In this document: piece after piece, positions 6,776 through 42,755 of the stretch
Numbering within the stretch: the first letter of the stretch is position 1
How the letters are laid out: each line of letters starts with the position of its first letter
Source: a bacterium
GTDB taxonomy: Bacteria; Actinomycetota; Acidimicrobiia; Acidimicrobiales; Bin134
Reading direction: 5' to 3'
Length of the DNA: 64,000 nucleotides
Assembly: GCA_026708015.1 (NCBI GenBank)
Contig: JAPOVT010000029.1
Location: 62,001-126,000, forward strand
Notes under the pieces: generated by a model
What the model was told of the DNA's origin: nothing
The model's database searches: none
Seen by the model: only the letters and a program-made list of their open reading frames with translations
Made by a program: the position numbers and the translations under genes

Positions 6776-8542
6776 ATGAGCGACGCCATTCGATACGAGG
6801 CCGATGAGCACTGCCCTCCGGGTATTGCGGCCATAGCCGGGCTTCAGGGGGTGGTGCTGGCGCTGGCGCCGATCGTGTCGATTGTGATCGTCACCGCCCG
6901 AGCGGGAGGCCAAGACGCCGGTTACTTCTCATGGGCGCTGTTCGCGGCGCTGATCATTGCTGGCGCGTTAACCGCCTTGCAGGCCACCCGGTTCCAGAGG
7001 TTTGGCGCTGGCCACATCCTGATCATGGGCCCGACCCCGAACTACATCGCCATCTCGGTGTTGGCGCTGGCCGAAGGCGGTCCGGAGTTGCTGGCCAGCC
7101 TCACCGTGGTGGCTTCGGTGTTCTATCTCGTGCTGGCCTTTTGGCTGCCGTTCTTGCGCCGCGTTGTCACCCCGGTGGTCACCGGCACGGTGCTGATGCT
7201 GATCGCCGCCACCATCTTGCCGGTGGCGCTGGATCGATTGGACGACATTCCCTCCGATGCGCCTGAAGCCGCCGGGCCGACGATCGCCTTGGTGACGCTG
7301 GTGGTTTCCACCCTGCTCTTCTTGCGGGCTTCAGGAGTGTGGCGGTTGTGGTCGCCCCTCATCGGGATCGTCATCGGCAGCGTGGTCGCCGCGCTGTTCG
7401 GTGCTTATGAGATCAGTTCGGTGGCCGATGCGGCCTGGGTGGGGATTCCCGAAGGAAGCGGATTCCCCGGGTTCGACCTCACCCCGGGAGCGAGCTTCTG
7501 GTCGCTTCTGCCCGCGTTTGTGGTGGTGGTGCTGGCCGGCGGGGTCAAGAATGTCAGCGACAGCGTCGCCATCCAGCAGGTCTCGTGGCGCCGGCCCCGG
7601 GTTCCCGACTTCCGGCTGGTTCAGGGCTCGCTCAACACCAACGGGCTCGGCATCCTGGCCGCCGGCATTTTCGGGACTCCCCCCAACTCTGTCTATTCGG
7701 GAACCAGCGTGTCGCTCATCGGCTTTACCGGCGTGGCCGCTCGCCGCATCGGCTATGTAATCGGCGGCACCCTGTTGACGCTGGCCTTTCTACCCAAGCT
7801 GACCGCGTTCTTGCTCACCCTTCCCAGTCCGGTCATGGTCGCCTACATCCTGACGGCCATCGCCCTGCTCTTCGTGAGCGGTGTCCGCACCGTCGTGCAG
7901 GACGGACTGGATGCCCAAAAGGCCCTGGTGGTGGGACTGTCGTTCTCGCTGGGCATAGGAATCGACAACCAGACCATCTTCGCCGACCTGCTGGGCCACA
8001 AGTGGGGCCTGCTGCTCGACAATGGCATGCTCGTCGGAGCGCTGGCGGCGGTGTTGATGACCGTGTTCTTGGACCTGACCAGCCCTCAGCGGCGCAGCCG
8101 CTTGGAGGTCGAGCTCAGCGTGTCGTCTCTGCCGGAGATTGATCGGTTCCTGCAAGGAATAGCTGTTCAGAACCAATGGGACGAGGCTTCCACCCAGAGG
8201 CTGTGCTCAGCCGGCGAAGAGGCATTGCTGAGCTTGGTGCTACCCGATGAGACCGGAGAGGAACTGATCGTGAGCCTTGTCGAGGTTGATCAGCCCTATG
8301 AAGATCAACCTCGTCTCATCATCCAAGCCCGCCCCGAAGCCGGCATGGTGGAGATGGAGTTCCTCGCGGTGATCGACGCAGAGAATCTCGAGGACCGCTT
8401 GGCGTCATTGAGCGAGGAGGCCGAGGGTGCGAAGGAAGGCGAGATATCGCTTCGCCTGCTTCGGCACTACGCCTCATCCGTCCACCATCAGAAATACCAC
8501 GGTTTAGATATCGTTACAGTGCAGGTCAGAGGCTCTGCCTAG
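6776..8542 (+). CDS. NCS2/NAT-family-like permease with a C-terminal HATPase-like domain
   Basis: Residues 1-440 are hydrophobic with about 12-14 predicted TM segments and resemble uracil/xanthine permeases ('GAGHILIMGPTPNYIAISVLALAEGG', 'GIFGTPPNSVYSGTSVSLIGFTGVAARR'). The NAT signature is altered: the usual E/Q-N-x-G position after 'YS' reads GTSVS, and the TM8 acidic motif reads 'NVSDSVAIQQ'. Residues about 445-588 are soluble and match the RsbW/HATPase_c_2 layout: an opening helix, 'AGEEALLSLV' (N-box-like) and a final 'ISLRLLRHYASSVHH' stretch. The key Asn and Gly residues look degraded. The stop lies 19 bp before the PKS start, so co-transcription is likely. Substrate unknown. Confidence 0.7.
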   Translation: MSDAIRYEADEHCPPGIAAIAGLQGVVLALAPIVSIVIVTARAGGQDAGYFSWALFAALIIAGALTALQATRFQRFGAGHILIMGPTPNYIAISVLALAEGGPELLASLTVVASVFYLVLAFWLPFLRRVVTPVVTGTVLMLIAATILPVALDRLDDIPSDAPEAAGPTIALVTLVVSTLLFLRASGVWRLWSPLIGIVIGSVVAALFGAYEISSVADAAWVGIPEGSGFPGFDLTPGASFWSLLPAFVVVVLAGGVKNVSDSVAIQQVSWRRPRVPDFRLVQGSLNTNGLGILAAGIFGTPPNSVYSGTSVSLIGFTGVAARRIGYVIGGTLLTLAFLPKLTAFLLTLPSPVMVAYILTAIALLFVSGVRTVVQDGLDAQKALVVGLSFSLGIGIDNQTIFADLLGHKWGLLLDNGMLVGALAAVLMTVFLDLTSPQRRSRLEVELSVSSLPEIDRFLQGIAVQNQWDEASTQRLCSAGEEALLSLVLPDETGEELIVSLVEVDQPYEDQPRLIIQARPEAGMVEMEFLAVIDAENLEDRLASLSEEAEGAKEGEISLRLLRHYASSVHHQKYHGLDIVTVQVRGSA

Positions 8543-8561
8543 TCTTGTCAAAGGAGAATGC

Positions 8562-11500
8562 ATGACTTCTCATTCAGGGGAATCGATCGCGGTTGTCGGA
8601 ATGGCGTGCCGCTTTCCTCAGGCCGACGACCTGTCGGCGTTTTGGCGTCTGCTGGAAACAGGCACGAATGCGGTCATCGAAGGCGTGCCCGGCTCCGGGG
8701 TCGGACGGGTGGGCGAGTTGTTCTCCGAAATGCCGGAGAAGGAAGCCTGCCGGTTCGGTGCCTACCTCGACCAGATCGACGAATTTGACGCCGAGTTCTT
8801 CCGCATCTCGCCCACAGAGGCTCAGATGCTCGACCCGCAGCAGCGGCTCATGCTGGAGACGAGCTGGCAGGCCCTCGAAGACGCCGGGATCGATCCCGAC
8901 GGGCTGAAGGGCAGCCGAACCGGTGTCTATGCCGGGATCAGCTCCAATGACTACCGCCATCTGATCCTGGTCACCAGCGGGACTTCTGAGCCGGCCCCCA
9001 GTCTCTATGCGGTGACTGGCACGTCCTATAGCACGGCCATCGGCCGGGTTGCCTTCGCGCTGGGCCTGGAAGGACCGGCGATGGCAGTGGACACCGCCTG
9101 TTCCTCCTCCCTGGTGGCCGTCCATCAAGCCGCAGCTGGCTTGCGACAGGGCGAAGCCGACTTGGCGTTGGTCGGCGGAGTACACGCCATGGCCTCGGGG
9201 CGGATGATCGAGCTTCGGGCCAACGCCGGGATGCTGGCGCCCGATGGGCAGTGCAAAGCATTCGATGCCTCGGCCAACGGTTATGTGAGGGGCGAAGGAT
9301 GCGGGATGGTGGTCCTCAAGCGGCTCAGCGATGCAGAGGCCGACGGCGACCGCATTTGGGGAGTGGTCCTCGGCTCCGCGGTCAACCAGGACGGGGCGAG
9401 CTCCGGCTTGACGGTGCCGATGGAGACAGCCCAGCAGCAGGCCATTGAAGAGGCATTGCACAATGCCGGGGTTGTCCCCGCCGATATCGACTATCTGGAG
9501 GCTCACGGGACGGGCACTCCAGTGGGCGACCCGATCGAGGTCAATGCCGCGGCCGCGGCTTATCGCCAAGGCCGCGATGAGGCGAATCCCCTGCTGATTG
9601 GCTCGGTGAAGACCAACATCGGCCACTTGGAAGCGGCTGCCGGTGTCGCTGGCCTGATCAAGACTGTGCTGGCCATGAACCGGGGCACCATTCCCCGGCA
9701 CCTGAATCTCCGGGAACTGAATCCGAAGATTGACTGGGAGCAGTTTCCTGTTCAGGTGGCCACTGAGATGACCGAGTGGCCTTCGAACCAGGGCCGACCG
9801 CCCCGAGCGGGGGTGAACTCGTTCGGCTTCTCCGGCACCAACGCCCACGTCGTGCTGGAGGGGTACCCCGATTCCGGCGGGCAGTCAGTACCGGTTGGCC
9901 CTTCACGTCCCATTGTGGTGTCGAGTCTTGGCGACTCCGATCGGCCCGCCGAGATGGAAGCTCGCCTGGCCCGGCTTCTGCCCCTGTCGGGAAAGTCGCC
10001 TGTGGCCCTTCAAGAACTGGCCGAGCGGCACATGTCGTGGCTCGACGAGCAGGCGGAAGAGCTTGCCGTGGACAACTCGGCGGCCGTACCGGTGCTTTCC
10101 GACATGGCTTGGACCGCGGGAGTGGGTCGTAGCCATCAGGCCTATCGGGCCGGAGTTGTGTTCCGGGACGCCGAGTCGCTTCGCGAGAAGCTCAGTGCGC
10201 TCTTGGAGGGAGAAACCGAGTTGCAAAGGTCCCAGACCGCCCCGAAAGTGGCCTTCGCGTACACCGGTCAGGGCAGCCAGTGGATTGGCATGGGCCAGGC
10301 GCTCTACGACCGCGAGCCGGTGGTGCGAGAAGTATTGGATCGCTGCGACCGGGCGATGCGCGAACTGCGGGGCACATCGCTGCTAGCGGTGATGTTCGGG
10401 GCGCCCGACGCCGAGGGTGACCTGGACGATCCGGCGTGGACGCAACCCGCCATCTACGCGCTGGAGTGCGCGCTCACCGAGTTGTGGGCGAGCTTGGGAG
10501 TTGGGCCCGATGTAGTGGTTGGACACAGCCTCGGGGAGATCGCCGCGTCCCGGACTGCCGGTGTGTTCAGCCTGGAAGACGGTTTGCGTTTCGCGGCCGG
10601 GCGAGGCGCGCTCATGGCCGAGCTGCCCGAACCCGGGGCCATGGCCGGAGTGTTCGCCCCACCATCTGAGGTCGCGGCCTCTATAGAGGAGCAGAGGGCG
10701 GCATCGGGTGACCCCCGACTGGCAATCGCGGCCGACAACGGTGCCCACCAGATGATCAGCGGGCCGACCACCGATGTGGAGGCGGTGTTGCAGCGGTTCG
10801 AGGCGGAGGAGGTTCGAATCCGCCGATTGGAAAAGAGCGCCGGATACCACAGCGCCATGGTCGACCCCATCTTGGACGGTGTGGAGGCCCTACTGGCCGA
10901 ATTGGAAGTCGGGTCGCCGTCGTTGGCCTTTGTCAGCAGCATGCTGGGCCGCGCCCTGGTGCCGGGCGAAGAGCTCGACAGCTCCTATTGGCGCCGTCAG
11001 GCCCGTCAGGCGGTGGAGTTCCGAAGCTGCGTCGAGACCTTGGCCACAGAAGGCGTGCAGGTTGTCATCGAGGTTGGTCCGGGCGCGGTGCTCGGGCCCA
11101 TGACCGCCTTGGCTTGGCCGGAGCAAGCGGGCAGCGCTCCCGCGCCGGTTGTGGTGTCGAGCATGAAGCGGCCTTCCACCCGGACCCCGGAGCCCGACGA
11201 CCGCTGTGGATTTATGGACGCCGTGGCGGGGGCGTATCAGGCGGGGCTCGATATCTCTTACGACGGGTTGTTCGCCGGCGAAGAGCGCCGTCGGGTTTCC
11301 CTGCCCAGCTACCCGTTCCAGCGCCAGCGCTACTGGGTTGAAGGAACAAGACGCCGTCGGCAGAGCAGTGGCCATCCGCTGCTGGGCGTTCGCCACGACT
11401 CTCCCCGGGGCGAGTCGCTGTTCGAGACCGAGATGTTCGCCTCTGATCCAGCCTGGCTGGCGGACCACCGGGTATTCGACCGGGTGGTGATGCCGGGGGC

Positions 11501-14500
11501 GCTTTATGGCGCTATGGCCGCATCGGCGCAGCTGAGCGATGGATCCCAATCGGTCACCGTGGAGGACTGGCAGCTTTACAGCCCGCTGATTTTCTCGGAA
11601 GAGGAGTCGGAGGATGGCGGAGGCCGCAGCGTGCAACTCGTGTTGGAAGATGCCAAGGGCGCGGTGTCGCGGGGCTTTGAGATCTTCAGCAAAGCGCCCA
11701 CCGAGGAGAAATGGACGCTCCATGCTCAAGGTCAGGTGTCGCCGGGCGTTCGCCTGCATGAGGCCCCAGAGCCGGTAGATCTCAACGCCCTGAAGGCAGG
11801 TTTGACCCGAGGGGATGTTTCCGCGTTCTACCAGGCCAAGGCTGAGTCGGCGATCGACTTCGGCCCGTCTTTCCGCACCCTTCAATCGATTTGGCTGGAG
11901 GCGGGCGAGGCGGTGGGCGAAGTGGTCTTGCCTCCAACCGTGGACCACGGCGGGTTAGACGTGCATCCGATCTTGCTCGACGGCTGCTTCCAAGTCATGT
12001 CGGCGGCCCGCAGTCTGTCCGGCGCCGAGGGCGGTGCCACCTACATGCCGTTCGGGTGCGAGCGCTTTTGGCTTTCTGGCCCGCTGCCCGAGCGACTGGT
12101 CTGCCATGTCCGCATGAGGGACGCAGTTCAGGACCGGGCATCGGAGCGCGAGCCCGATGAGTCGCCGGAAGTCCTCACCGGCGACATTCACCTCTATGAC
12201 CCCGACGGCATACCGCTGGGCGGGTTGAGCGGCTACACGGTGAAGCGGGCCACCCGGACGGCGCTGCTTTCCGCGGTGGAGGGCCTGGAAGATCTGCTGT
12301 ACGAGGTGGTTTGGCGGGATGCAGATCTGGCCGAAGATCCAGCCGATGTCACCGAGCCTCCTGGCGCCTGGCTAGTGGCCGCCGACCAGAGAGGCGTCGC
12401 CGAAGAACTGGCTGCGGAGTTGGCGGAGCGCAATCAGACCGTGGTGGTGGCCTCCCACGGCGAGGCAGGCGATGGCATCGCGCCGACGGAGGGTGGAGTT
12501 CATCGCTGGACCGCGGACGTGCGAGACCGGGAGTCATGGCGATCGCTCATTGCGGTCCTTCCCGAAGACGTGCCGCTGAGGGGCGTCGTTCACCTTGCCG
12601 CTCTCGACGGCCACGGGCACCAGGCATCTACCGAGGATCTCGCTGAAGATGTGCGGAGTGCGGGGGCCAGCGCGCTGGCATTGACTCAGGGTCTGATCGA
12701 CGCCGGAGTCGAGCCCACCCATGGGCTGTGGTTGGTCACCAAGGGAGCTCAGGTGCTGGGTTGCGAGTTGGTCGGTGAGTTGGCGGGTGCGACGTTGTGG
12801 GGCATGGGCAAATCCCTCGCCCGGGAAGCGGCGCACCTCAAGACAAGGATGGTCGATCTCGACCCCGAGGGCGAAGAGCCGGTGTCTGATTTGGTTGCGG
12901 AGCTGTTCTCCAACGACGGGGAAACCCACATAGCGCACCGTGCTGGCAGCCGCAGGGTCGCCCGTTTGATTCATAGCGGTGCTGAGACCGTCCGAATGGC
13001 CTTGCCCGAAGAGCCCGGTTGGCGACTGGCGCCAGATCCTGGGGGGTCGATAGAGAGGCTGGCAGCCGAGCCGCTGCCACCGCTTCCGCTGGCTTCGGGT
13101 GAAGTTCGGGTCGGCATCGAGGCCGCTGGCCTCAACTTCCGAGATGTGCTGGTCAGCATGGGAATGCTGGGCGACAACTCTCTTCTCGGCCGCGAGATGT
13201 GCGGCGTAGTCCTCGAGGTGGCCTCGGATGTGACCGCCGTCTCGGTGGGCGACCGGGTGGTGGGGTTGGGATTCGGGACCTTCGCGCCGGAAACTGTGAC
13301 CCGGGCGGAGCTGGTGGCACCGGCGCCCCCGGGCATTCCGGCACCCACCCTCGCCACGGTGCCTCTGGCCTTCACCACTGCGGCGATCGCCTTCGAGCTA
13401 GCCGGCTTGAAGGCCGGCGACCGGGTGCTGGTCCATGCCGGTACCGGCGGTGTGGGATTGGCGGCAATCCAGCTTGCTCAAGCCGCTGGCGCCGAGGTGT
13501 TCGCCACCGCCAGCACCCCGAAGCAGGCGTACCTCCGGTCGTTGGGCGTGGCCCATGTGTTCGACAGCCGCCAGACCGCCTTCGGCGACGAGATCACCGA
13601 GGCCACCGGGGGCGAGGGCGTTCATGTAGTGCTGAACAGCCTGACCGGGGAGGGCTTCATCGAGGCCAGCCTCTCCTGTTTGGCCGATGGCGGACGCTTT
13701 GTGGAACTCGGCCGGCGGGGCATTTGGAGCCAAGCCGAGATGTCCGAGGCCCGTCCCGATGTCGAGTACTCCATTTTGGAGTTGGACGTTTTGAAGGTTG
13801 AAGATCCGGATCGCGTCGGGGCGTCTCTCAGCAGCGTGATGGAGCAACTGGCAGCCGGAGAGCTGAAACCGCTGGTCCATCGCTTCTGGCCGCTGGCTGA
13901 GGTCAGCGCCGCAATGGAGTACATGCAGTCGGCCCGCCACATCGGCAAGAACGTCCTCGTCATGCCCCCGCTGGCCGTCGGCCGATTGCGGGATGATCGT
14001 ACCTATCTGGTTACCGGCGGTCTGGGCGGGATCGGCTGCGAGGTGGCCGAGTGGCTTGTAGACCAGGGAGCAACCGCAATCGTGCTAAATGGGCGACGGC
14101 CTCCCGACAATGCCGCCCAGGCAGTGATCAGCGGGCTGCGGGAGCGGGGAGCGGTAGTGCAGGTGGAGCTGGCCGACGTCACCGACCCCTCGGCCGTGGA
14201 TCAGATGCTGAGCCGAATTGACGATTCGATGCCTCCGCTGGGCGGTGTGATCCACAGCGTTGGCGTTCTGTCGGACGGCTCGCTGTCCAACTTGAGCTGG
14301 GCTCGGTTCGAGCAGGTTCTGGGGCCGAAAGTGCTGGGGGCCTGGCATCTGCATAGCGCCACCAAGGATCGCGACTTGGATCTGTTCCTCCTCTTCTCCA
14401 GCATTACCAGTGTCCTGGGCAAAGCCGGTCAGGCGAACCATTCGGCCGCCAACGCGTTCTTGGATCAGCTTGCCGCCCATCGGCGGGCCCAAGGGCTCTC

Positions 14501-16958
14501 CGGGCAGTCCATCGCTTGGGGCGCATGGTCGGAACTGGGCGAAGCCGAAGAGCAGCGGGACCGTATCTCAAGACAGCTAGCCGCTTCGGGGACGGGCTGG
14601 ATCACTCCCCAGCAGGGTATGAAGGCCTTGGACCGCTTGGTACGCCAGGATGCGGTGGCCACCATGGTGGGGCTGGTCGACTGGCCGGTGTTCACCGAGG
14701 GTCTCGACAGCCGACTGGCGTTCTTCGAAGAGCTGCTGTCGGCCGACACCGGGGAGGCGGCTGACGAGGCGGAAATGTCGGGTGATCTGCTCTCCCAACT
14801 GGGGGAGGCGGCCGCGGAAGAACGCGAGGCCCTGCTGACCGCGTTCTTGCAGCAGGAGTTGCAGGCGGTGATGAAGCTCTCAACACCACCCTCGCCCACC
14901 GCAGATTTTTCCGATCTCGGGATGGACTCCCTCATTGCGGTGGAGTTGCGGAACCGCCTTAACCGTGCCTTCGCCGGGGAGTACATGGCATCGAACACGG
15001 TGGTGTTCGACTATCCCGATGTCTCCAGCCTCGCTCGCCACCTCGCAGGCGACCTCGATCAGGTCATCGGGGCCGAGGCAAAGCCCGAGCCTGTCCCCCA
15101 GCCCCGCCCGCGAGCCCGCCAGCGGGGCCAAGACGGGATTGCCATTGTGGGCATGGCGTGTCGGTTCCCCGGTGCAGAAGATCTCTCGGCCTATTGGCGG
15201 CTGCTGGAAGCCGGTGAGAACGCGGTAACCGACGGTCGCCAAGACGAGGGTTCTTGGAGCGGGGTTGCCGGCGATCCCTCAGCGGTTGACGTCACGCATC
15301 GGCGGGGAGCGTTCGTCGAGGGGATTGATCGGTTTGACTCCAGCTTCTTCCGCATCTCCCCGATTCAGGCTCGAATGATGGACCCGGTACAGCGCATGCT
15401 GCTGGAGACCAGCTGGCATGCCTTGGAGGACGCGGGAATGGATCCAGCCCAGCTGAAGGGCTCCAGAACCGGGGTGTTTGCCGGAGTGGGCGACAGCGAA
15501 TACCGCCGGGTGATTGCAGCCAGCGGCCGGGAAGACACCACGTTCGGCACCGTGGGGAGCGTGGCGGTGGGACGGGTGGCATTTGTGTTGGGTCTGGAAG
15601 GCCCGGCTATGCCATTGAACCTGGCCTGCGCGTCGTCGTTGGCCGCGGTACACCAAGCGGTCGCCGCATTTCGAAACGATGAGATCGATCTAGCCCTCGT
15701 GGGGGCGGCCAACGCAGTCTTGTCCCCAGCGATGACACGATTCCTCGACGAACACGGACTGCTCTCGCCCGACGGTCAATGCAAGGCCTTCGACGCCTCG
15801 GCCGATGGCTATGTGCGGGGCGAGGGCTGCGGGATGGTGGTCCTGAAGCGGCTGGGTGATGCCGAGGCCGATGGCGACCGGATCTGGGGCGTGGTGCTGG
15901 GTTCGGCTGTCAACCAAAACGGAGCGAGCCTGGATCTCATCCTGCCCAATGGGCGAGCCCAGCAGCAGGTAATCCAAAAGGCGTTGGAGCGGGCTGGCGT
16001 GGAACCATCCGAGGTGGACTACATGGAAGCCCATGGACTGGGAACGATGGTGGGTGACCCTGCTGAAGTGGACGCCGCTGGCACCGTGTACGGGCAAGGG
16101 CGCGATGGGGATCGCCCTCTGTTGATTGGCTCAGTGAAGACCAACATCGGCCACCTGGAATTTGCGTCGGGGATTGCCAGCCTCATCAAGACCGTGCTGG
16201 CCATGAGGAGGCGGTTGATTCCCCGACAATTGCATTTCGAGAATCCCAATCCGCAGATCGACTGGGATCGGCTGCCGGTACAAGTGACCACTGCCCCCAC
16301 GGAGTGGCCTCTCGAACCAGACCGACCCCCGATTGCTGCGGTCCACTCGCTGGGGATTTCGGGCACGAACGCGCACGTTGTCTTGGAGGGTTACCCATCC
16401 CCTCACAGCGAGGACGGGCTCGAGGGGGTTCCCTGGCCAATGGGTGCCCCACGGGCAGTGGGAGATGACACAGAGGTTGAAGAGGGAGAGGAAGGGCGGC
16501 GAGCACGGTTGCTGCCGTTGTCGGGCAAATCTGACGGGGCAGTCCGAGATATGGCTAGAGGGTATCTGCGTTGGCTCGACGACCACGCCGACCTGCTCTC
16601 GTCGGAAGATTCCGCCGACTCGCTGCTATCGGACATGGCGTGGACGGCGAGCATTGGTCGCAGCCACTTCTCCTATCGCACCAGCGTTGTGTTTCGCGAC
16701 GAGGAGTCTTTGCGGGCCGGGCTTCGGGCGGTTGTGGACCACGACCACGAGTTCAGCCCATGCGAAGAAGGGGGAGTGCTGTCGACCGATGGCTTCGATC
16801 CTGGCGATGACGGCTCGGTGAAGGCGGTCGGCGCGGCCTATGAAGCCGGCCAAACTGTCGATTTCGAGTATCTCTTCAGCGGAGAGAGGCGCCGGCGGCT
16901 GTCGCTGCCCAGCTATCCGTTCCAGCGCCGGCGCCACTGGGTCCAGCCGCGCAAATAG
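8562..16958 (+). CDS. Type I highly reducing polyketide synthase, KS-AT-DH-ER-KR-ACP-KS
   Basis: ATG at 8562 follows AAAGGAGA. Domains in order (2798 residues): KS1 about 7-430 (active Cys180 in DTACSSS, 'EAHGTGT', 'KTNIGHLE'); AT about 555-870 (GHSLGE, Ser656; the usual HAFH specificity motif reads AGYH); DH about 925-1230 (His969 in a H-x3-D-x4-P variant, Asp1140); structural KR about 1245-1480; ER about 1490-1800 (HAGTGGVG near 1625); KR about 1808-2000 (TGGLGGIG near 1818; catalytic Tyr position is His in 'GQANHSAAN'); ACP about 2090-2160 (GMDSL); KS2 about 2190-2615 (Cys2356 in LACASSL, 'EAHGLGT'). The last 180 residues are KS-AT and post-AT linkers with no AT between them. There is no loading domain, methyltransferase or thioesterase. 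It would extend and reduce an acyl chain; the product is unknown. Confidence 0.93.
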   Translation: MTSHSGESIAVVGMACRFPQADDLSAFWRLLETGTNAVIEGVPGSGVGRVGELFSEMPEKEACRFGAYLDQIDEFDAEFFRISPTEAQMLDPQQRLMLETSWQALEDAGIDPDGLKGSRTGVYAGISSNDYRHLILVTSGTSEPAPSLYAVTGTSYSTAIGRVAFALGLEGPAMAVDTACSSSLVAVHQAAAGLRQGEADLALVGGVHAMASGRMIELRANAGMLAPDGQCKAFDASANGYVRGEGCGMVVLKRLSDAEADGDRIWGVVLGSAVNQDGASSGLTVPMETAQQQAIEEALHNAGVVPADIDYLEAHGTGTPVGDPIEVNAAAAAYRQGRDEANPLLIGSVKTNIGHLEAAAGVAGLIKTVLAMNRGTIPRHLNLRELNPKIDWEQFPVQVATEMTEWPSNQGRPPRAGVNSFGFSGTNAHVVLEGYPDSGGQSVPVGPSRPIVVSSLGDSDRPAEMEARLARLLPLSGKSPVALQELAERHMSWLDEQAEELAVDNSAAVPVLSDMAWTAGVGRSHQAYRAGVVFRDAESLREKLSALLEGETELQRSQTAPKVAFAYTGQGSQWIGMGQALYDREPVVREVLDRCDRAMRELRGTSLLAVMFGAPDAEGDLDDPAWTQPAIYALECALTELWASLGVGPDVVVGHSLGEIAASRTAGVFSLEDGLRFAAGRGALMAELPEPGAMAGVFAPPSEVAASIEEQRAASGDPRLAIAADNGAHQMISGPTTDVEAVLQRFEAEEVRIRRLEKSAGYHSAMVDPILDGVEALLAELEVGSPSLAFVSSMLGRALVPGEELDSSYWRRQARQAVEFRSCVETLATEGVQVVIEVGPGAVLGPMTALAWPEQAGSAPAPVVVSSMKRPSTRTPEPDDRCGFMDAVAGAYQAGLDISYDGLFAGEERRRVSLPSYPFQRQRYWVEGTRRRRQSSGHPLLGVRHDSPRGESLFETEMFASDPAWLADHRVFDRVVMPGALYGAMAASAQLSDGSQSVTVEDWQLYSPLIFSEEESEDGGGRSVQLVLEDAKGAVSRGFEIFSKAPTEEKWTLHAQGQVSPGVRLHEAPEPVDLNALKAGLTRGDVSAFYQAKAESAIDFGPSFRTLQSIWLEAGEAVGEVVLPPTVDHGGLDVHPILLDGCFQVMSAARSLSGAEGGATYMPFGCERFWLSGPLPERLVCHVRMRDAVQDRASEREPDESPEVLTGDIHLYDPDGIPLGGLSGYTVKRATRTALLSAVEGLEDLLYEVVWRDADLAEDPADVTEPPGAWLVAADQRGVAEELAAELAERNQTVVVASHGEAGDGIAPTEGGVHRWTADVRDRESWRSLIAVLPEDVPLRGVVHLAALDGHGHQASTEDLAEDVRSAGASALALTQGLIDAGVEPTHGLWLVTKGAQVLGCELVGELAGATLWGMGKSLAREAAHLKTRMVDLDPEGEEPVSDLVAELFSNDGETHIAHRAGSRRVARLIHSGAETVRMALPEEPGWRLAPDPGGSIERLAAEPLPPLPLASGEVRVGIEAAGLNFRDVLVSMGMLGDNSLLGREMCGVVLEVASDVTAVSVGDRVVGLGFGTFAPETVTRAELVAPAPPGIPAPTLATVPLAFTTAAIAFELAGLKAGDRVLVHAGTGGVGLAAIQLAQAAGAEVFATASTPKQAYLRSLGVAHVFDSRQTAFGDEITEATGGEGVHVVLNSLTGEGFIEASLSCLADGGRFVELGRRGIWSQAEMSEARPDVEYSILELDVLKVEDPDRVGASLSSVMEQLAAGELKPLVHRFWPLAEVSAAMEYMQSARHIGKNVLVMPPLAVGRLRDDRTYLVTGGLGGIGCEVAEWLVDQGATAIVLNGRRPPDNAAQAVISGLRERGAVVQVELADVTDPSAVDQMLSRIDDSMPPLGGVIHSVGVLSDGSLSNLSWARFEQVLGPKVLGAWHLHSATKDRDLDLFLLFSSITSVLGKAGQANHSAANAFLDQLAAHRRAQGLSGQSIAWGAWSELGEAEEQRDRISRQLAASGTGWITPQQGMKALDRLVRQDAVATMVGLVDWPVFTEGLDSRLAFFEELLSADTGEAADEAEMSGDLLSQLGEAAAEEREALLTAFLQQELQAVMKLSTPPSPTADFSDLGMDSLIAVELRNRLNRAFAGEYMASNTVVFDYPDVSSLARHLAGDLDQVIGAEAKPEPVPQPRPRARQRGQDGIAIVGMACRFPGAEDLSAYWRLLEAGENAVTDGRQDEGSWSGVAGDPSAVDVTHRRGAFVEGIDRFDSSFFRISPIQARMMDPVQRMLLETSWHALEDAGMDPAQLKGSRTGVFAGVGDSEYRRVIAASGREDTTFGTVGSVAVGRVAFVLGLEGPAMPLNLACASSLAAVHQAVAAFRNDEIDLALVGAANAVLSPAMTRFLDEHGLLSPDGQCKAFDASADGYVRGEGCGMVVLKRLGDAEADGDRIWGVVLGSAVNQNGASLDLILPNGRAQQQVIQKALERAGVEPSEVDYMEAHGLGTMVGDPAEVDAAGTVYGQGRDGDRPLLIGSVKTNIGHLEFASGIASLIKTVLAMRRRLIPRQLHFENPNPQIDWDRLPVQVTTAPTEWPLEPDRPPIAAVHSLGISGTNAHVVLEGYPSPHSEDGLEGVPWPMGAPRAVGDDTEVEEGEEGRRARLLPLSGKSDGAVRDMARGYLRWLDDHADLLSSEDSADSLLSDMAWTASIGRSHFSYRTSVVFRDEESLRAGLRAVVDHDHEFSPCEEGGVLSTDGFDPGDDGSVKAVGAAYEAGQTVDFEYLFSGERRRRLSLPSYPFQRRRHWVQPRK

Positions 16959-33930: not shown

Positions 33931-34896
33931 ATGGCTGGATCTGGCTCGTTCCGCTTGTTCCGTTCGTTCCGCTCCGCGGTGGCAGTGGCGGCGGCGGCCG
34001 TCGCGTGTGTTTTGATCGCACATGCGGCGACCCTGACGTCGCAGCCCCAGGCTCGGGCCCAAGACGCCGGCCCGCCGGGCGCGGTCGGTGATCCCGGTCC
34101 GCCGGGCCCGCCGGGCGCGGTCGGTGATCCCGGTCCGCCGGGCCCGCGGGGCGCTCCCGGCAGCGGCGGCGGCGCTCAGGGTCAGCCTGGTCCTGCCGGC
34201 GCTCAGGGTCCGCCGGGCGCGCGCGGTGGTGCTGGTTCTGATGGGGATGCGGGTCCGAAGGGTCCTGATGGGGATGCGGGTGCGCCTGGTCCGCCGGGCC
34301 CGCCTGGTTCTGGGGGGTCGAATCCCGGGCCTGCCGGCGCTCAGGGTCCGCCTGGTCCTGCCGGCGTTCAGGGTCCGCCTGGTCCTGCTGGCGTTCAGGG
34401 TTCTGATGGGGATGCGGGTCCGAAGGGTCCTGATGGGGATGCGGGTGCGCCTGGTCCGCCGGGCCCGCCTGGTTCTGGGGGGTCGAATCCCGGGCCTGCC
34501 GGCGCTCAGGGTCCGCCTGGTCCTGCCGGCGTTCAGGGTCCGCCTGGTCCTGCTGGCGTTCAGGGTTCTGATGGGGATGCGGGTCCGAAGGGTCCTGATG
34601 GGGATGCGGGTCCGAAGGGTATTGCCGGTGATCCGGGTCCGCAGGGCCCGCCGGGCGAAACGGGCACGGCCGGTCCGAGAGGTCCTAAGGGACCCGATTA
34701 TGGAGATGTCATTGTCGAGTTCCGTACGTCTATCTTCGGGACCGCGGTCCAAGTTCCGACCGGAAGGCACGCCGGTGCCTACGGCCACTACCTGCGAATC
34801 TTGCGGAACATAAGTGATGTACCGCAGACATGCATCATCTCGACACCCGGCACCAACAACGCCTGGACACTGCGCGCCACCTTCACCTGTAGCTAA
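33931..34896 (+). CDS. Second secreted collagen-like protein
   Basis: The ATG at 33931 follows the stop of the first collagen-like gene by one base, so the two are co-transcribed. The N-terminus has an Arg/Ser-rich start and a long hydrophobic stretch with cleavage likely after 'QARA'. A G-x-y region (about 47-250) includes two full 55-residue repeats rich in [13 protein letters not shown]. The C-terminal domain of about 70 residues ('[12 protein letters not shown]', '[13 protein letters not shown]', '[11 protein letters not shown]') has two Cys and a beta-rich look, suggesting a trimerisation or binding head. It differs from the cap of the first protein. Function unknown; likely surface adhesion or matrix. 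Confidence 0.78.
34234..34563 (+). repeat. Two 165-bp tandem repeats in the second collagen-like gene
   Basis: Units begin at 34234 and 34399, with the start of a third at 34564. Each 165-bp unit encodes 55 residues. They are independent in sequence from the 159-bp repeats of the neighbouring gene. Confidence 0.88.
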
Positions 34897-36665: not shown

Positions 36666-37067
36666 TTACCGGTCTGCTCCTGGCGAGATGATGGGGATGT
36701 GGTTTTGCCGGGCTGCCTCGGCCAGCTTGTTGTCGTAGGTGACGATGCCTTCGAGGTCGCGGCCGAGGCCGAGGGCCGATGCGAGGTGGATGGCGTCCAG
36801 GGAGCGCAAGGAGGGCGGATCCAGGTGTCCCGCCTGCTCAAAGATGTGCTCTCCAATCCTGACCAGCCGCACTGAGGCGAGCACTTCGGTGGCGGTCAGA
36901 ACGTGGGCCGACGTCAGTCGGCGAGCGGCGCGCAACAGCTCTGTGCGCACGAAGTCGCCGGCCACCAGATCTCGGTGCTGCTGGGCCCGCCAGGATTGGA
37001 ACCCCGGTGTCTCGGGCTCGGCGACAACCAGCTTCGCCAACGCCGAGGTATCGACATAGAACGCCAT
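36666..37067 (-). CDS. vapC: PIN-domain ribonuclease toxin, VapC type (second pair)
   Basis: The 133-residue PIN domain has 'MAFYVDTSALAKLVVAE' (first Asp), 'DFVRTELLRAARR' (Glu), 'RSLDAIHLASALGLG' (second Asp) and 'IVTYDNKLAEAA' (third Asp), so the full acidic site is present. It begins one base after the Phd-like antitoxin stop. Predicted RNA cleavage; target unknown. Confidence 0.88.
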   Translation of the reverse strand: MAFYVDTSALAKLVVAEPETPGFQSWRAQQHRDLVAGDFVRTELLRAARRLTSAHVLTATEVLASVRLVRIGEHIFEQAGHLDPPSLRSLDAIHLASALGLGRDLEGIVTYDNKLAEAARQNHIPIISPGADR

Positions 37068-37068
37068 C

Positions 37069-37341
37069 TCAGTAGCGTTCGCCCTCTCTCATTTCAGCGA
37101 GCACCTCCGACAGGCTCGGCCCTTCGATGGGATCGGGCAGATCAGCGATGTCTCGTGTGGCCTCTGTTACCAGACCGGCATCGGCCAGCTCTTGAAGACG
37201 CGACTTGGGAATCGGCGTCAACAGCGCCATAGGTCGTCCCCGGCTGGTGATCGTCAAAATCTCTCCGGCGGCCGCTTTGGCCACCACCGCGGAAGCGTTC
37301 TGCTTGAGAGCTCGGATGCCAACCTCGGTCATGTGCTTCAT
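37069..37341 (-). CDS. Phd/YefM-type antitoxin
   Basis: 90 residues from the ATG at 37341; a second ATG at 37332 gives 'MTEVGIRALKQNASAVVAKAAAGEILTITSRGRPMALLTPI', the standard Phd/YefM fold with 'GE.l.iT.rGrPvA.l.P'. The C-terminal tail 'LPDPIEGPSLSEVLAEMREGERY' is the toxin-binding arm. It represses its operon and neutralises the PIN toxin encoded next. Confidence 0.88.
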   Translation of the reverse strand: MKHMTEVGIRALKQNASAVVAKAAAGEILTITSRGRPMALLTPIPKSRLQELADAGLVTEATRDIADLPDPIEGPSLSEVLAEMREGERY

Positions 37342-37475: not shown

Positions 37476-39146
37476 CTACAGCACACACCCGGCCTGCCGG
37501 TTGGCGGGCAGCTTCTCGCAGAATGCCCAGCGCTCTTCGGGGGTCACGAGCACGTAGCCCGCTTGTTGCTGTATCGACCAGTAGCAGGAGTCGCGGCTCT
37601 GGGGATATGCGGTGGGGTCGGCGTCGAGCATCGCGCAGAACTCCACGGCCCGGTCAGCGCCCACGGGCTCCCAGAACCCGTTTTGGGCCGCTTCTCTGAT
37701 GCAGTCGGCGTTGTCGGCGGAGGCCGCGGCGTGGCGGCAATGGCCGATGGTCTCAGCGGGGTCGTCAGCGGCGAGGTTGGCGGCGTCGCGCCCGTACGAC
37801 CGGAAGCAAAGCGAGCGGGCGTTGGCAGGCGCCGCATCGCATAGAGCGGCGACCGCGGCCATGTTCCAGTTCAGAACATCGGCCATGCGGGTGGTCTGGT
37901 AGAAGTAGCAATACGGTTGATAGCGCGCCTCGACGATGTTGCAGGGGTAGATGGGATCGCCTTCGCGGAGGTATTCGGTGATATGGCCCATCGCCCCCGA
38001 CAGACCGCCGACCACGTTCTCCATGTACACCCCCGAATAGCACGAAAAGCGGTCGAGGCGCGGCGCGTGGTCGCACAGCCCGAGCGCCCCCGGCAGGTCG
38101 TAGTTGGTCCAGGCCATGAGGCCGTGCCCCACGCCGTGGACGCACTGATGGCGGAAGAACGTGTTATGGGTGCTGTCGCAGAGAGCGGCGATATCGGCGG
38201 CCAGATTGGCGGTGCCTCGCTCGGCGAACAGTGCCTCGGTGGCGCCGTGCTGCCCGCCCGACTGGCAGTCGTGGGAGGCCAGCGCGAACGCGGCCGGGCC
38301 GAACTTCTCGTAGGCGATGCGCCCCGCCTCATGGGCCCGGTTGTGGCAGTCGCTTCCCGATTCCAACTCGATCTGCTTGAGCACCTGGAGCGCCGCTCCG
38401 GGGCCGAACCTCTCGATGAACGCCTCGAGCTCGCGGTCGTCGGTGTAGATGCCCACATGCGAGGCGGCCGCGTCCTGCGGCACGGGGGCGAACTCACGGT
38501 CGGGCATCTCGAACACGAGGGGGGCCTGACGCCCGCTCGCCGAAGCCAGTGCCTGATCGCGGCCGCTCTCGGTGCCGGGCGAGGGGGAAACCGACACCAG
38601 GCCCCCCTCATCGGGGGAGAGGTGGTTGTGGTAGTACCACTGGCCGGGCTTGTCGAAGCGGTGGGTCCAGCTCGACCCCGGTTCCAGCGGGCGCTCAGGG
38701 TCGAATTCGGGGAGGATCTCATGGGTGGGGTGGATGTTGGACGCCGGCCAGAAGTACTCCTCGGAGGAGTTCACAAACAGCACGGCGTCGCCCGCGGCGA
38801 TCTCTATCCGGTTTGGCTCGAAACCGCTTTCGCCATAGACCACCCGATGCGACGCGCTCTCCCCGGAAGCAGGCCCCGAGGCGGTGTCCGGGGGGTCGGA
38901 GACGAGGATAGGCCCCGGTGGCCGAGAAACCGCCAGGCGGTCCGCCGATTCAGTCTTTTCGGAGGTGGCCACCACGGCCAGGGTGACCGCCAGCGCGGCC
39001 ACCGCGACCGCGGCCAATGCCAGCGCCGCCAAGAGGAGCCGGGACACGCGGTTTGAGCGCTCGTCCGAAGATTCCGAAGACGGGGTTCCTCCTGCGGCTC
39101 CCCCCCCTCCTCTCTGGGGAACCTCAGAAGGGCCTTGTCGGGTCAC
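37476..39146 (-). CDS. Membrane-anchored cupredoxin-like protein with a C-terminal Cys/His-rich domain
   Basis: The true start is a GTG at 39146 overlapping the cyclophilin stop (GTGA); the longer frame to 39716 is antisense-like filler. 556 residues: Pro/Ser-rich cytoplasmic start, TM about 36-60, cupredoxin-like domain about 100-187 ('FEPNRIEIAAGDAVLFVNSS' to 'GQWYYHNHLSPDEGGLVSV', with no type-1 Cys; the His-rich YHNHL replaces it). The C-terminal domain (266-556) has about 16 Cys, with CHNRAHEAG (267), CQSGGQHG (294), CVHGVGHG (335), CYSGVYMEN (369) and YPCN (400). The same order of motifs occurs in the CopC-CopD protein of this operon. I do not recognise this domain. Metal binding outside the membrane is the likely role. 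Confidence 0.72.
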   Translation of the reverse strand: MTRQGPSEVPQRGGGGAAGGTPSSESSDERSNRVSRLLLAALALAAVAVAALAVTLAVVATSEKTESADRLAVSRPPGPILVSDPPDTASGPASGESASHRVVYGESGFEPNRIEIAAGDAVLFVNSSEEYFWPASNIHPTHEILPEFDPERPLEPGSSWTHRFDKPGQWYYHNHLSPDEGGLVSVSPSPGTESGRDQALASASGRQAPLVFEMPDREFAPVPQDAAASHVGIYTDDRELEAFIERFGPGAALQVLKQIELESGSDCHNRAHEAGRIAYEKFGPAAFALASHDCQSGGQHGATEALFAERGTANLAADIAALCDSTHNTFFRHQCVHGVGHGLMAWTNYDLPGALGLCDHAPRLDRFSCYSGVYMENVVGGLSGAMGHITEYLREGDPIYPCNIVEARYQPYCYFYQTTRMADVLNWNMAAVAALCDAAPANARSLCFRSYGRDAANLAADDPAETIGHCRHAAASADNADCIREAAQNGFWEPVGADRAVEFCAMLDADPTAYPQSRDSCYWSIQQQAGYVLVTPEERWAFCEKLPANRQAGCVL

Positions 39147-40240
39147 TGCGTTCGGATGGTGATGGTGTTGATGGTGACGGGGGGATTGGGTGTGCCGCCG
39201 AAGTTGTTGCCGGGCTGGGTTTGGTGGGTGTTGAGGATGGCGGTGAGCACGTCGAGGCCAGCGGTGACTTGGCCGAAGACCACGGAGTCGCCCTGGGCGT
39301 CGAGCAGCGACGCGGCGTCGGTGACGGTGAAGAAGAACTGGGCGTCGGCGCTGTTGGGGTTGTCGGTGCGGGCCATGGCCAGGAGTCCGGGGCGATAGGT
39401 GAAGCCCGATCCCTCGTCCCAGATGGTGTAGCCGGGGCCGGGGTCGGAGGGGTCGTTTGTGCGGGGGGAGCCTCCCTGCAAGATGCCGATGCTGGGGTCG
39501 GAGCGGTGGATGAGGGTGTTGTCGTAGTAGCCGTAGCGGGCCAGGTTCACGAAATTGTTCACCGTTCCGGGCGTGCTGGCCGCGTCGAGGGCTACTTCGA
39601 CGAGGCCCTGCGTGGTGTCGAACACCGCGGTGTAGGCCCCGGAGGTGTCGATGCACAGGGCTGGGGCGTCGTCGAAGTCCAGCACCGCCTCGGCCGCTCC
39701 TTCGCTCGGCGCGCACAGCCCCGACCCGTAGTCAACCCCGGTGAACGGGTTGTAGAAAGTGCCGGTGGGCTGCGGCGCGGCCGAGTCGCCCGCCCCTGAC
39801 TGCGTTTGGATGGCGGGCTCTTCAGCCGCTGCGGTTTCTGCGGCGCCCTGACTGGGCTCTTCAGCGGCCGCGGCTTCTGCGGCGCTCTGACTGGGTTGTG
39901 AGTCGTCGTTCCCGTCGCCAGAAAGGAGGGTCCCGGCGAGCAAGCCGGCGGCAAACAAAGCCAGTACTCCGACAGCCACCAAAAGCACCTTCATGGGGTT
40001 CCTGGTGCGGCCGGGCGGGTCGGGGTGGTGTGGGGGCTCTGCGGGGTCTTCGCCTGCTCCGGGTGGTCGCTCCGCTCCGCCGGGGTCGCCGTCGGGGTGG
40101 TGTGGGGGCTCTGCGGGGTCTTCGCTCTGTGGTTTTCGGTTTGTAGGAGACGGGAACGTCACGACTACTTGGACATAGGGCTCCGCGGGGTCTTCGCCTT
40201 GCAGTTTCCGTACGTTGATCTCCGGTTCTATGGGCTCCAA
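39143..40240 (-). CDS. Membrane-anchored cyclophilin-type peptidyl-prolyl isomerase
   Basis: The TTG at 40240 follows AGGAG. The N-terminal 80 residues are cytoplasmic, with three EDPAEP units (two extended to EDPAEPPHHPD). A TM segment ('MKVLLVAVGVLALFAAGLLAGTLL') and an Ala/Glu-rich linker with repeated AAEEPSQGAAE follow. The cyclophilin domain (about 200-365) has 'VNNFVNLARYGYYDNTLIHR', 'GILQGGSPRTND', 'LAMARTDNPNSADAQFFFTV' and 'VFGQVTAGLDVL'. It would isomerise prolines of exported proteins. It sits between the two Cys/His-domain proteins, perhaps to fold them. Confidence 0.88.
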   Translation of the reverse strand: MEPIEPEINVRKLQGEDPAEPYVQVVVTFPSPTNRKPQSEDPAEPPHHPDGDPGGAERPPGAGEDPAEPPHHPDPPGRTRNPMKVLLVAVGVLALFAAGLLAGTLLSGDGNDDSQPSQSAAEAAAAEEPSQGAAETAAAEEPAIQTQSGAGDSAAPQPTGTFYNPFTGVDYGSGLCAPSEGAAEAVLDFDDAPALCIDTSGAYTAVFDTTQGLVEVALDAASTPGTVNNFVNLARYGYYDNTLIHRSDPSIGILQGGSPRTNDPSDPGPGYTIWDEGSGFTYRPGLLAMARTDNPNSADAQFFFTVTDAASLLDAQGDSVVFGQVTAGLDVLTAILNTHQTQPGNNFGGTPNPPVTINTITIRTQ

Positions 40241-40322
40241 GGCAGGCTCCTCTTACTGGTGCGTGGTTGGAAAAATAACACGCTGCTGTTGGTGCTTCGG
40301 GCCAGGGCGCCGCGCCGCGGGC

Positions 40323-42755
40323 TCATAGAGTGGCGGCCACTCTGTCTCTGGCTTCAAAGCAGGCCGGTTGCATGCTCGTTCGGATCGACTGGCATATCAC
40401 GGTTGCCTGAATCGTGTTGTGGTTGTTGTAGATGGTGTTAGTGGCGGCACCCACGTAGCAGTCGGCCTGGTAGGCGGGGTCGCCCAGAGAGCAGAGCCGC
40501 ACGATGGTGCTCGGATCCTGGTCGTGGACGCTGCTGATGTCCCGCCCCAGCGCCAGATAGCAGTTGTCCACCATGTCGGATCTGACCCTGTTGCAAATGG
40601 AGAAGACCTCGGCGAAGCCCGAGGTGTCGTAGCCCACATTGTGGAGTATCCACGATGTCTGGGTGGCGAAGCAGTCGGCCACATACAGTTCGGGAATGGC
40701 GTTGCAGGGATAGACGAGGTCGTCGACGCGCAGATAGGTGGGGGTTCCCTGCTGGCCGAGGATCATGTTCTCCATCAGCGCTCCGTTCATGCAGGTGCTG
40801 TCTTCCCAGGGATCGCTGAACACCTCGCAGTAGGGGATGGTCTCGAAGAGGTCGCCGTCGACGATTTTCATGATTCCGTGGCCGAGGCCGTGAACGCAGT
40901 TGAAGTGATCGAAAGAGTACTGCCGGGCTGCGACCACAGAGCAGAACCCCGGAAGCTCCTCTGCCAACTCGGCGTCGTCGAACTCCCCGAGGGCGTATTC
41001 GACGACGCCGTGGTAGTAGCCCGACCAGCACGCAGAGCCCTCGTAGGTCAACGCGGTGCCCACGTCGCCGTACCAGACAACCGCGTCGTTGCCCAGATCG
41101 TGGGTGATCTGATGGCAGTTGCGGGCAACGAAGTTGTCGGTCTTGGACAGCTCCTCCACCATGTCCACAGCCTTGTCGGCGCCCTGGCTCTGCATGACCG
41201 ATGAGAAGTAGTCGCGATAGCAGTTGGCCATCCCGAGGGTGCGCAGGGCGCACTCCTCTGTGCTGGCGGGAGGCTCGTTGCTCAAAAGCGCCAGGTCGTA
41301 CCCGCCGGTTTGGGTGCCCTCGGCATCGTCTGCGGTGGCACCCAGAAGATCTTGGGCGTCGCGGGCGTCGAGACTCGCCGGATTCAACCCCGTGAGAATC
41401 GCCGCGACTGCGATGATCCCGCTCAGTGCCCAGGATTCCAGCCGCAGCGTGCGCGGCGGAATCGTCGCCGACCGCTGGCCGGCGGGGCGGCGAAACCGGG
41501 CCAGCCAGCCCACGCGCCGGTCGTGGTACACGGCGAGGGGCACCGCCACCATTACCACCAGGCCCAGTTTCACCAGCAGGACGGTGGCGTAGCCGGAGCC
41601 TTTGAGCAGTTCGCCGCCGGCCAACAGCCAGGTGGACCGCAGGCCGGTGAGCGCCAGAACTGCGAACGCGGCCACGGCCGCGGGGGCGAATCGCCGGAAC
41701 AGCTCCCTGGTTGCAGCCGAGCGCTCGCTGTTGGGCCGCTGTCTCCAAGCCGTTGTGGCCATGGCCGCCGCGAGGATCAGCAGCGGCCCCAGCCAGACGC
41801 TTGCCGCGGCCAAGTGCAGGGTGGAGACCCATATTCCAAACGGGTCTTCCGACAGCGTCACCGTGTGGCCGGGAGTGGCGCCGAAGGCGATGAGCACGAC
41901 AATCCCAATGCCAGCCTGAAGCAGTGTCAGCTCCGATCGCGACCGGCCCAGGCGAGCGGCCAGCACCGCCAGTGCTCCCGTGCCCACCACGGCCATGAGC
42001 AGTGTTCGCCCGGTGCCCTCCGCCAGGGCCAGACGGAGGTTCTCGCGCAGCGGGCCGTCGCCGTACCCGCGGGTGATGAGCGCGATGGTTGCCACCGTTC
42101 TCGTCAAGATGGCGGCGAACAGAATGAGCGCCCCGGCTACCAGGGAGCGTCGGGCCGCATTGGCCAAGATGGCCGAGGCCGCCGCCGGCGGTTGCGGCCC
42201 CCTCAGATTCCAGCCCAGAACCAGCAGCGATCCCACCACCGCGGCCAAGGCGATGTACCACCCGAATCGCCCGATGCCGCTGACCACTTCCAGGGCGCGG
42301 TCCAGCGTAGGAGTGCGGGTGAATGAGGCGGCCGCCACGGCCGCTTCGTCCACTATGCCCACGCCCACGACCACCTCGCCGGCGACGCGGTGGCCGTCGG
42401 GGCCCACAGTCGCCCACGAGAGTCCGAATATGCCCCTGCCCAGGTCGGGCAGGGCGAACTGTATTACCTCGGCGTTCTTGCCGGTGGGCGTAAGAAGGGT
42501 GCTGCCTTCGATGGTCTCGCCGTCGGAGGCGATGATCTCAAGCCGCACCGATCGGGGGTCCACGGCCTCGGCGAATACCAGTGTGAGCTGCTCGGGCTGC
42601 TCGGCCGACACGGTGCGGTCGGCGGGGAAGGTCTCCACGAGCCGCGTGTGGGCTGATGCGGTTGAAGTGCCGAATCCGAGCGTGGCCACAAATACCAGGA
42701 AGAATGCCGCGGCCAACGCCCAGCCACTGCCAGCACACCGCTTTCGTGCGTCCAC
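40323..42755 (-). CDS. CopC-CopD fusion with a C-terminal Cys/His-rich domain
   Basis: I chose the GTG at 42755 because it gives a short signal peptide (MDARKRC..., cleavage after STASA, residue 35). An ATG at 42812 is possible; the frame to 43253 runs antisense into coaX. The mature protein starts with His36, the position of the copper-ligand N-terminal His of CopC. CopC (36 to about 125) includes 'HTRLVETFPADRTV' and 'VGPDGHRVAGE'. CopD (about 140-500) has about eight TM segments, with 'STLHLAAASVWLGPLL'. The C-terminal domain (545-810) has CHQITHDLG (547), CWSGYYHG, CVHGLGHG (620), CMNGALMEN and YPCN, in the same order as the cupredoxin protein at 37476. Likely copper import or sensing at the cell surface. 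Confidence 0.82.
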   Translation of the reverse strand: MDARKRCAGSGWALAAAFFLVFVATLGFGTSTASAHTRLVETFPADRTVSAEQPEQLTLVFAEAVDPRSVRLEIIASDGETIEGSTLLTPTGKNAEVIQFALPDLGRGIFGLSWATVGPDGHRVAGEVVVGVGIVDEAAVAAASFTRTPTLDRALEVVSGIGRFGWYIALAAVVGSLLVLGWNLRGPQPPAAASAILANAARRSLVAGALILFAAILTRTVATIALITRGYGDGPLRENLRLALAEGTGRTLLMAVVGTGALAVLAARLGRSRSELTLLQAGIGIVVLIAFGATPGHTVTLSEDPFGIWVSTLHLAAASVWLGPLLILAAAMATTAWRQRPNSERSAATRELFRRFAPAAVAAFAVLALTGLRSTWLLAGGELLKGSGYATVLLVKLGLVVMVAVPLAVYHDRRVGWLARFRRPAGQRSATIPPRTLRLESWALSGIIAVAAILTGLNPASLDARDAQDLLGATADDAEGTQTGGYDLALLSNEPPASTEECALRTLGMANCYRDYFSSVMQSQGADKAVDMVEELSKTDNFVARNCHQITHDLGNDAVVWYGDVGTALTYEGSACWSGYYHGVVEYALGEFDDAELAEELPGFCSVVAARQYSFDHFNCVHGLGHGIMKIVDGDLFETIPYCEVFSDPWEDSTCMNGALMENMILGQQGTPTYLRVDDLVYPCNAIPELYVADCFATQTSWILHNVGYDTSGFAEVFSICNRVRSDMVDNCYLALGRDISSVHDQDPSTIVRLCSLGDPAYQADCYVGAATNTIYNNHNTIQATVICQSIRTSMQPACFEARDRVAATL

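Follow-up and report, generated by a model that had tools for sequence, protein, structure and literature searches.

In Bacillus subtilis, the protein YcnJ joins CopC, CopD and YtkA domains, and its CopC histidine brace and CopD are both required under copper starvation (PMC13344008). Its extracellular YtkA domain contributes to CuA assembly, where it is partly redundant with CtaK, and no reductase is known for the Cu(II) that YcnJ imports (PMC13344008). YcnI is a membrane-anchored Cu(II) protein of cupredoxin fold which exchanges copper with YcnJ (PMC12362106). A different extension of CopD is found in Corynebacterium glutamicum, where CtiP is CopD fused to Caa3_CtaG (PMC9145763). Here we describe an operon on a 64,000-nucleotide stretch of an Acidimicrobiales genome (assembly GCA_026708015.1, contig JAPOVT010000029.1, positions 62,001 to 126,000 of the forward strand), which as a whole is called the window. 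The operon reads as a variant of a known copper-uptake module, and it carries a new domain family. The new domain forms the C-terminal part of both a CopC-CopD protein (P0002) and a membrane-anchored cupredoxin-like protein (P0001).

Three minus-strand genes follow each other in one run, the CopC-CopD protein first, then a cyclophilin-type prolyl isomerase, then the cupredoxin-like protein. The first-pass annotation of this DNA had put the two domain-bearing proteins in one operon. The gene run agrees with this, with the addition that the cyclophilin gene lies between them. The features are as follows, in window coordinates.

40323..42755, minus strand: P0002, CopC-CopD plus the new domain, start codon provisional (Pfam CopC E 2.8e-12, CopD E 1.7e-9)
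42366..42650, minus strand: CopC domain of P0002; Cu(II) histidine brace made up of DGH and the His of AHTRL, which follows the signal peptide (Pfam, by sequence)
41370..42275, minus strand: CopD membrane part of P0002, eight predicted transmembrane segments, HxxAAxxWxGPL motif (Pfam, hydropathy)
40326..41255, minus strand: new domain in P0002, residues ~519-828, core 564-828 (homology, predicted topology)
39143..40240, minus strand: cyclophilin-type peptidyl-prolyl isomerase, middle gene (Pfam PF00160 E 1.5e-28)
37476..39146, minus strand: P0001, membrane-anchored cupredoxin plus the new domain, 556 amino acids (translation; CUP and DOM profile matches)
38580..38861, minus strand: cupredoxin-like domain of P0001, residues ~96-189 (alignment A4, AlphaFold, Foldseek, PDB profile matches)
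37479..38450, minus strand: new five-His helical domain with putative disulfide pairs in P0001, residues ~233-556, core 266-556 (homology, AlphaFold)
38331..38345, minus strand: codons of H268 and H272 (domain H3 and H7), invariant in 31/31 diverse members
38247..38249, minus strand: codon of H300 (domain H35), invariant in 31/31
38124..38138, minus strand: codons of H337 and H341 (domain H72 and H76, CVHGxGHG motif), invariant in 31/31

The GTG start of P0001 overlaps the stop codon of the cyclophilin gene by 4 bases, and a cyclophilin homologue follows CopCD in the sister genomes checked. At another locus (L112) the CopCD-domain gene is flanked by two cyclophilin genes, at 5136-5684 and 8542-9075. 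In P0002 the N-terminal brace of CopC (His1, Asp, His) is present, and CopD has a conserved His within HLAAASVWLGPL, which may be the counterpart of YcnJ H295; both are read from the sequence. A hydropathy scan counts eight segments after a cleaved signal, so that the new domain of P0002 is predicted to lie outside the membrane. P0001 has a single predicted transmembrane segment at its N-terminus (residues 32-64).

How does this locus compare with the described systems? Like YcnJ, P0002 combines in a single chain a CopC with a Cu(II) histidine brace, a CopD and, at the C-terminus, an extracytoplasmic domain, and like YcnI, the neighbouring P0001 is a membrane-anchored protein with a cupredoxin fold. 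Unlike in YcnJ, however, the C-terminal domain appears to be all-helical, disulfide-paired and His-bearing, without a YtkA match. P0001 differs from YcnI in being an all-His cupredoxin, not a DUF1775 protein, and in carrying the same new domain as P0002, and the cyclophilin gene between the two is a further difference from ycnJI. A YtkA identity of the P0002 tail was rejected, as it has no Pfam match and the homologous region of P0001 is modelled as all-helical. A DUF1775 identity of P0001 was rejected as well, since its sole cupredoxin match is a sub-threshold one to Cupredoxin_1. At most, the window proteins may work like YtkA and DUF1775 proteins, by analogy. P0002 also resembles CtiP in that its CopD is extended by an additional module, which in CtiP is a copper-assembly module; but CtiP adds the membrane protein CtaG, and the link to CtaG here is only through a neighbouring gene in Kitasatospora.

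A domain family shared by two copper-linked proteins

It had been noted at first pass that a series of Cys/His motifs recurs in the same order in the tails of both proteins, and that the region looked unrecognised. Both observations hold. BLASTP aligned residues 266-504 of P0001 with 564-806 of P0002 over about 240 residues (28% identity, E 4e-25 in a single comparison), and the Smith-Waterman score was 253 against a maximum of 62 in 1000 shuffles of one sequence (Z ~41). While the tails are homologous as proposed, the start of the domain had been placed too late: one more helical hairpin of about 45 residues, upstream of the CH-x3-H motif, is part of the homologous region, and here the CopCD form and several stand-alone copies have an additional Cys pair. 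The new domain has no match in Pfam, NCBIfam or PHROGs, with 31 members checked against Pfam. Residues 519-828 of P0002 have no Pfam match at E < 1, and a PDB sequence profile search with the domain gave none even at E 10. A description of the domain was also not found in the literature on CopC/CopD fusions, Patescibacteria cupredoxins and copper solenoids, in which subscription journals were thinly covered. Judged by its sequence, the region common to both tails represents a new family of extracytoplasmic domains, described in none of the libraries searched. Recent duplication within the operon was rejected as its origin, since on the tree the P0001 and P0002 domains stand in different well-supported clades, that of P0001 grouping with Chloroflexota copies.

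Fold, cysteine pairs and invariant histidines

The domain of P0001 was modelled with AlphaFold2 from a 31-row alignment, with a predicted local distance difference test (pLDDT) of 91 and a predicted template modelling score (pTM) of 0.86. The model is all-helical, and long helices of about 18 residues alternate with short ones of about 9. About seven to eight such long-short hairpins build up an alpha-solenoid in the model, with each hairpin stapled by a putative disulfide. Foldseek searches of the PDB and viral models found nothing below E 0.001 (best E 0.028, template modelling score, TM, 0.25). VIA-align 2 returned general helical repeats of HEAT and proteasome-cyclosome (PC) type, best Rpn2 with Z 7.8 at a root mean square deviation of 9.3, but notes that such Z values are common among helical-repeat folds. 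With HEAT and PC repeats the domain shares the build of an alpha-solenoid of short helix hairpins; unlike them, it probably has one disulfide in each repeat and a putative cluster of His, and there is no sequence match, Pfam giving none to HEAT, TPR, Sel1 or PC.

The domain has up to 16 conserved Cys, which come as adjacent pairs, and none of 31 relatives varies in the 14 core Cys or the five His. What are the Cys for? Apart from C2-C29, each pair connects a short helix, at its end, with the beginning of the long helix that follows, as disulfides of an extracytoplasmic protein would be expected to do. Among 70 domain rows, C2 and C29 are both present in 41 and both absent in 19, with no row keeping a single one; C171 and C182 are both present in 59, both absent in 5 and single in 1; and in the remaining pairs no Cys is missing from any row aligned on both sides. 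Because the Cys form adjacent pairs at helix ends and are retained or lost jointly, they are probably structural disulfides rather than metal ligands. The opposite reading, that the Cys bind metal in a Cys-rich copper store or chaperone like the copper storage protein Csp, could appeal to the many invariant Cys and to the copper context; the pairing just described speaks against it, as does the location of the domain outside the membrane, since Cys pairs there are as a rule oxidised, and no Pfam copper-storage family is matched. We consider it very improbable. Membership of Csp itself was rejected, with no Pfam match in 31 members and Cys that behave as pairs.

The five His (domain H3, H7, H35, H72 and H76, that is H268, H272, H300, H337 and H341 of P0001) are invariant in 31/31 diverse members, those of Gemmatirosa and Kitasatospora included, and persist in copies where Cys pairs or the nearly invariant Met M110 are gone. 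With the Cys of each long helix as zero, position +6 is taken by H35, H76 and M110, +2 by H72, and +1 and +5 by H3 and H7. Because of this stacked register, the five His and the Met would be expected to line up along one face of successive long helices, and they likely form a metal site on which, going by the register, the five His would converge. The Cys/His positions had been proposed as metal-linked. They are indeed conserved in homologues, but the metal link is now supported for the His and is unlikely for the Cys.

The cupredoxin part

In P0001 itself the Pfam match to Cupredoxin_1 is below the cut-off (E 0.027), and the call made at first pass would be weak from the window protein alone. 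It becomes firm through relatives (E down to 1.8e-9) and through the fold model of residues 96-189 (pLDDT 90), which Foldseek places with the Nitrosopumilus purple cupredoxin 5fc9 (E 3.5e-8, TM 0.82). PDB profile matches were to amicyanin and nitrite reductase. Like 5fc9 and amicyanin, then, the part is modelled with a cupredoxin fold; unlike them, it is without a Cys ligand and has HPxH and HxH motifs instead, whose His are invariant (alignment A4). None of the 32 cupredoxin sequences has a Cys in the C-terminal ligand loop, and a type 1 (blue) copper protein was rejected on this ground. The L014 and L015 relatives have long His-rich linkers ahead of the cupredoxin. In one genome of the window's order, two cupredoxin-domain genes with His-rich linkers of the HTHSHEHTHSH type, L116:6151-8109 (minus strand) and L116:11149-13092 (plus strand), stand about 3 kb apart.

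Fusion partners, neighbours and distribution

The earlier proposal that the domain sits outside the membrane on two copper modules agrees with the predicted topology, and other genomes and phyla show this association too. Fusion of the cupredoxin to the domain is found in Acidimicrobiia, Chloroflexota, other Actinomycetota and Patescibacteria, scattered over the tree; sometimes the cupredoxin is encoded next door (L092, L108), and sometimes one protein has two domain copies (L091, L093). The CopC-CopD fusions form one clade of Actinomycetota proteins, with one contig fragment also inside it, and almost every copy that is complete at its ends retains the CopC brace (AHTxL...DGH) and the CopD motif. 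In the window's genus, CopCD was found in 6/22 genomes, all six frames (836-997 codons) being long enough for the domain. The survey of partners went further than CopCD and cupredoxin. Two Actinomycetota proteins have a cytochrome c in front of the domain (Cytochrome_CBB3 E 2e-12 and 8e-9), and anchored stand-alone copies occur in Patescibacteria. Because of these cytochrome c fusions and stand-alone copies, it would be too narrow to restrict the role of the domain to copper import with CopCD. The cytochrome c of L161:8149-9747 (minus strand) and L163:1247-3265 (plus strand) is of class I. A stand-alone copy in Kitasatospora directly precedes Caa3_CtaG (E 7e-74), a copper assembly factor; on that plasmid (L132:5881-7855) an M56 peptidase/BlaI pair lies behind the domain gene and Caa3_CtaG.

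The genome counts below come from samples and not from full censuses, those for Patescibacteria and Chloroflexota include the two seed genomes, and most carriers are metagenome bins with loose species labels. By profile, the domain was found in 10/198 genomes of the window's order, 3/296 of its class, 16/346 of its phylum, 18/333 Patescibacteria and 1/301 Chloroflexota. A contig scan added Acidimicrobiia, SAR202 and other Chloroflexota, Peribacteria, Spechtbacteria and Taylorbacteria, and plasmid searches added the copies of Gemmatirosa (Gemmatimonadota) and Kitasatospora. The domain was not found in phages, nor in viral contigs, where close relatives only were sought. Patescibacteria have stand-alone copies, anchored or lipoprotein-like, with up to nine matches per genome. 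In L093, L094, L097 and L091-L092, from genomes of about 0.8-1.1 Mb, up to five domain-family genes are adjacent, and these paralogues vary in Cys pairs and M110 while retaining all five His. Two stand-alone copies, L097:8074-9540 and L098:4395-5870 (both minus strand), have an additional C-terminal transmembrane segment, and one of them is weakly like sortase-dependent surface proteins (NCBIfam E 0.006, below the cut-off).

Elsewhere in the window, a Phd/YefM antitoxin and PIN-domain protein pair (36666-37341, minus strand) lies immediately downstream of the operon. A protein with collagen-like Gly-X-Y repeats (33931-34896, plus strand; Pfam Collagen E 7e-28) is encoded a few kb away. A polyketide synthase of 2798 residues (8562-16958, plus strand) has two ketosynthase domains and acyltransferase, dehydratase, enoylreductase-like, ketoreductase and acyl carrier protein domains.

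Discussion

What could the new domain do? Its recurrent attachment to copper-handling or electron-carrying modules in several phyla suggests a new part that probably binds copper or passes it on, and because independent partners recur, the link to copper is firmer than it was from the window alone. We give somewhat better than even odds, about 0.55, to an extracytoplasmic copper-binding or copper-transfer domain. The five-His site would bind copper outside the membrane and serve as a relay or buffer between cupredoxin, CopC and CopD. The P0002 domain would exchange copper with the CopC/CopD import path and the P0001 domain with the membrane-anchored all-His cupredoxin. The operon may then work like YcnJ-YcnI of B. 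subtilis, with the new domain in the place of YtkA and the all-His cupredoxin in that of YcnI, and the cyclophilin may assist the folding of the disulfide-rich operon proteins. Note that we infer three steps here: the convergence of the His on a bound metal, the identity of this metal as copper, and its passage from one domain to another. The metal transfer proposed at first pass would be the last of these.

Several points weigh against a copper-binding or copper-transfer domain. The clustering of the His rests on the repeat register and not on distances measured in the model, and the Cys-pair losses reduce to about two events when placed on the tree, which makes the covariation suggestive but not massive. 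The domain is without a solved-structure relative in the PDB profile and Foldseek searches. No conserved copper neighbourhood was found beyond the fusions and the cyclophilin, and 15/19 domain-bearing Patescibacteria have no detected heme-copper oxidase subunit I (COX1). Since most of them lack such a match, oxidase assembly was rejected as a universal role of the domain. COX1 is nevertheless somewhat commoner among the Patescibacteria with the domain, at 4/19 against 3/76 (Fisher p 0.028, kinship uncorrected). Near-full-length COX1-type matches were seen in G510, G621, G686, G702, G449, G471 and G489, a minority of the Patescibacteria searched.

The cupredoxin and cytochrome c partners would suit electron transfer equally well, and this is a further point against copper transfer. 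As the main alternative, the domain might be an enzyme with a metal centre, such as a cupric reductase or another oxidoreductase; the centre, built by the five His, would exchange electrons with the cupredoxin or cytochrome c. Redox enzymes typically show such fusions, the helical HxxxH pairs with a conserved E and M would fit, and a reductase for the Cu(II) imported by YcnJ has yet to be named (PMC13344008). But the attached cupredoxin, which lacks the type 1 Cys ligand in all members seen, may not carry electrons, no redox carrier is seen in any of the CopCD-domain proteins, and no similarity to any enzyme appeared in Pfam, Foldseek or PDB searches, so that we regard an enzyme as unlikely. 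Or is the domain a secreted scaffold for protein interaction, which docks on the membrane copper machinery and whose His are structural or bind partners? Helical solenoids often bind proteins, the VIA-align likeness is only to general HEAT/PC-type repeats, and the Patescibacteria paralogue arrays suit diversifying binders. Yet five strictly invariant His amid variable surroundings are unusual for a scaffold, and they stay in paralogues that are without M110 and two Cys pairs; to us a scaffold is rather doubtful. Copper binding or transfer is what we prefer, and it has a bolder version which we offer as speculation, itself unlikely. The five His and the Met, on adjacent helices of a disulfide-stapled extracellular solenoid, might form a new mono- or dinuclear copper centre unlike known copper folds. 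The domain would then serve outside the membrane as a reductase or receptor for Cu(II), feeding CopD and, in other bacteria, taking electrons from an attached cytochrome c or cupredoxin.

The many copies in small-genome Patescibacteria, mostly without a heme-copper oxidase match, hint at a copper or surface function in these organisms. Copper uptake by bacteria and the hand-over of copper outside the membrane are poorly understood, and the domain gives them a concrete new part, with five named His.

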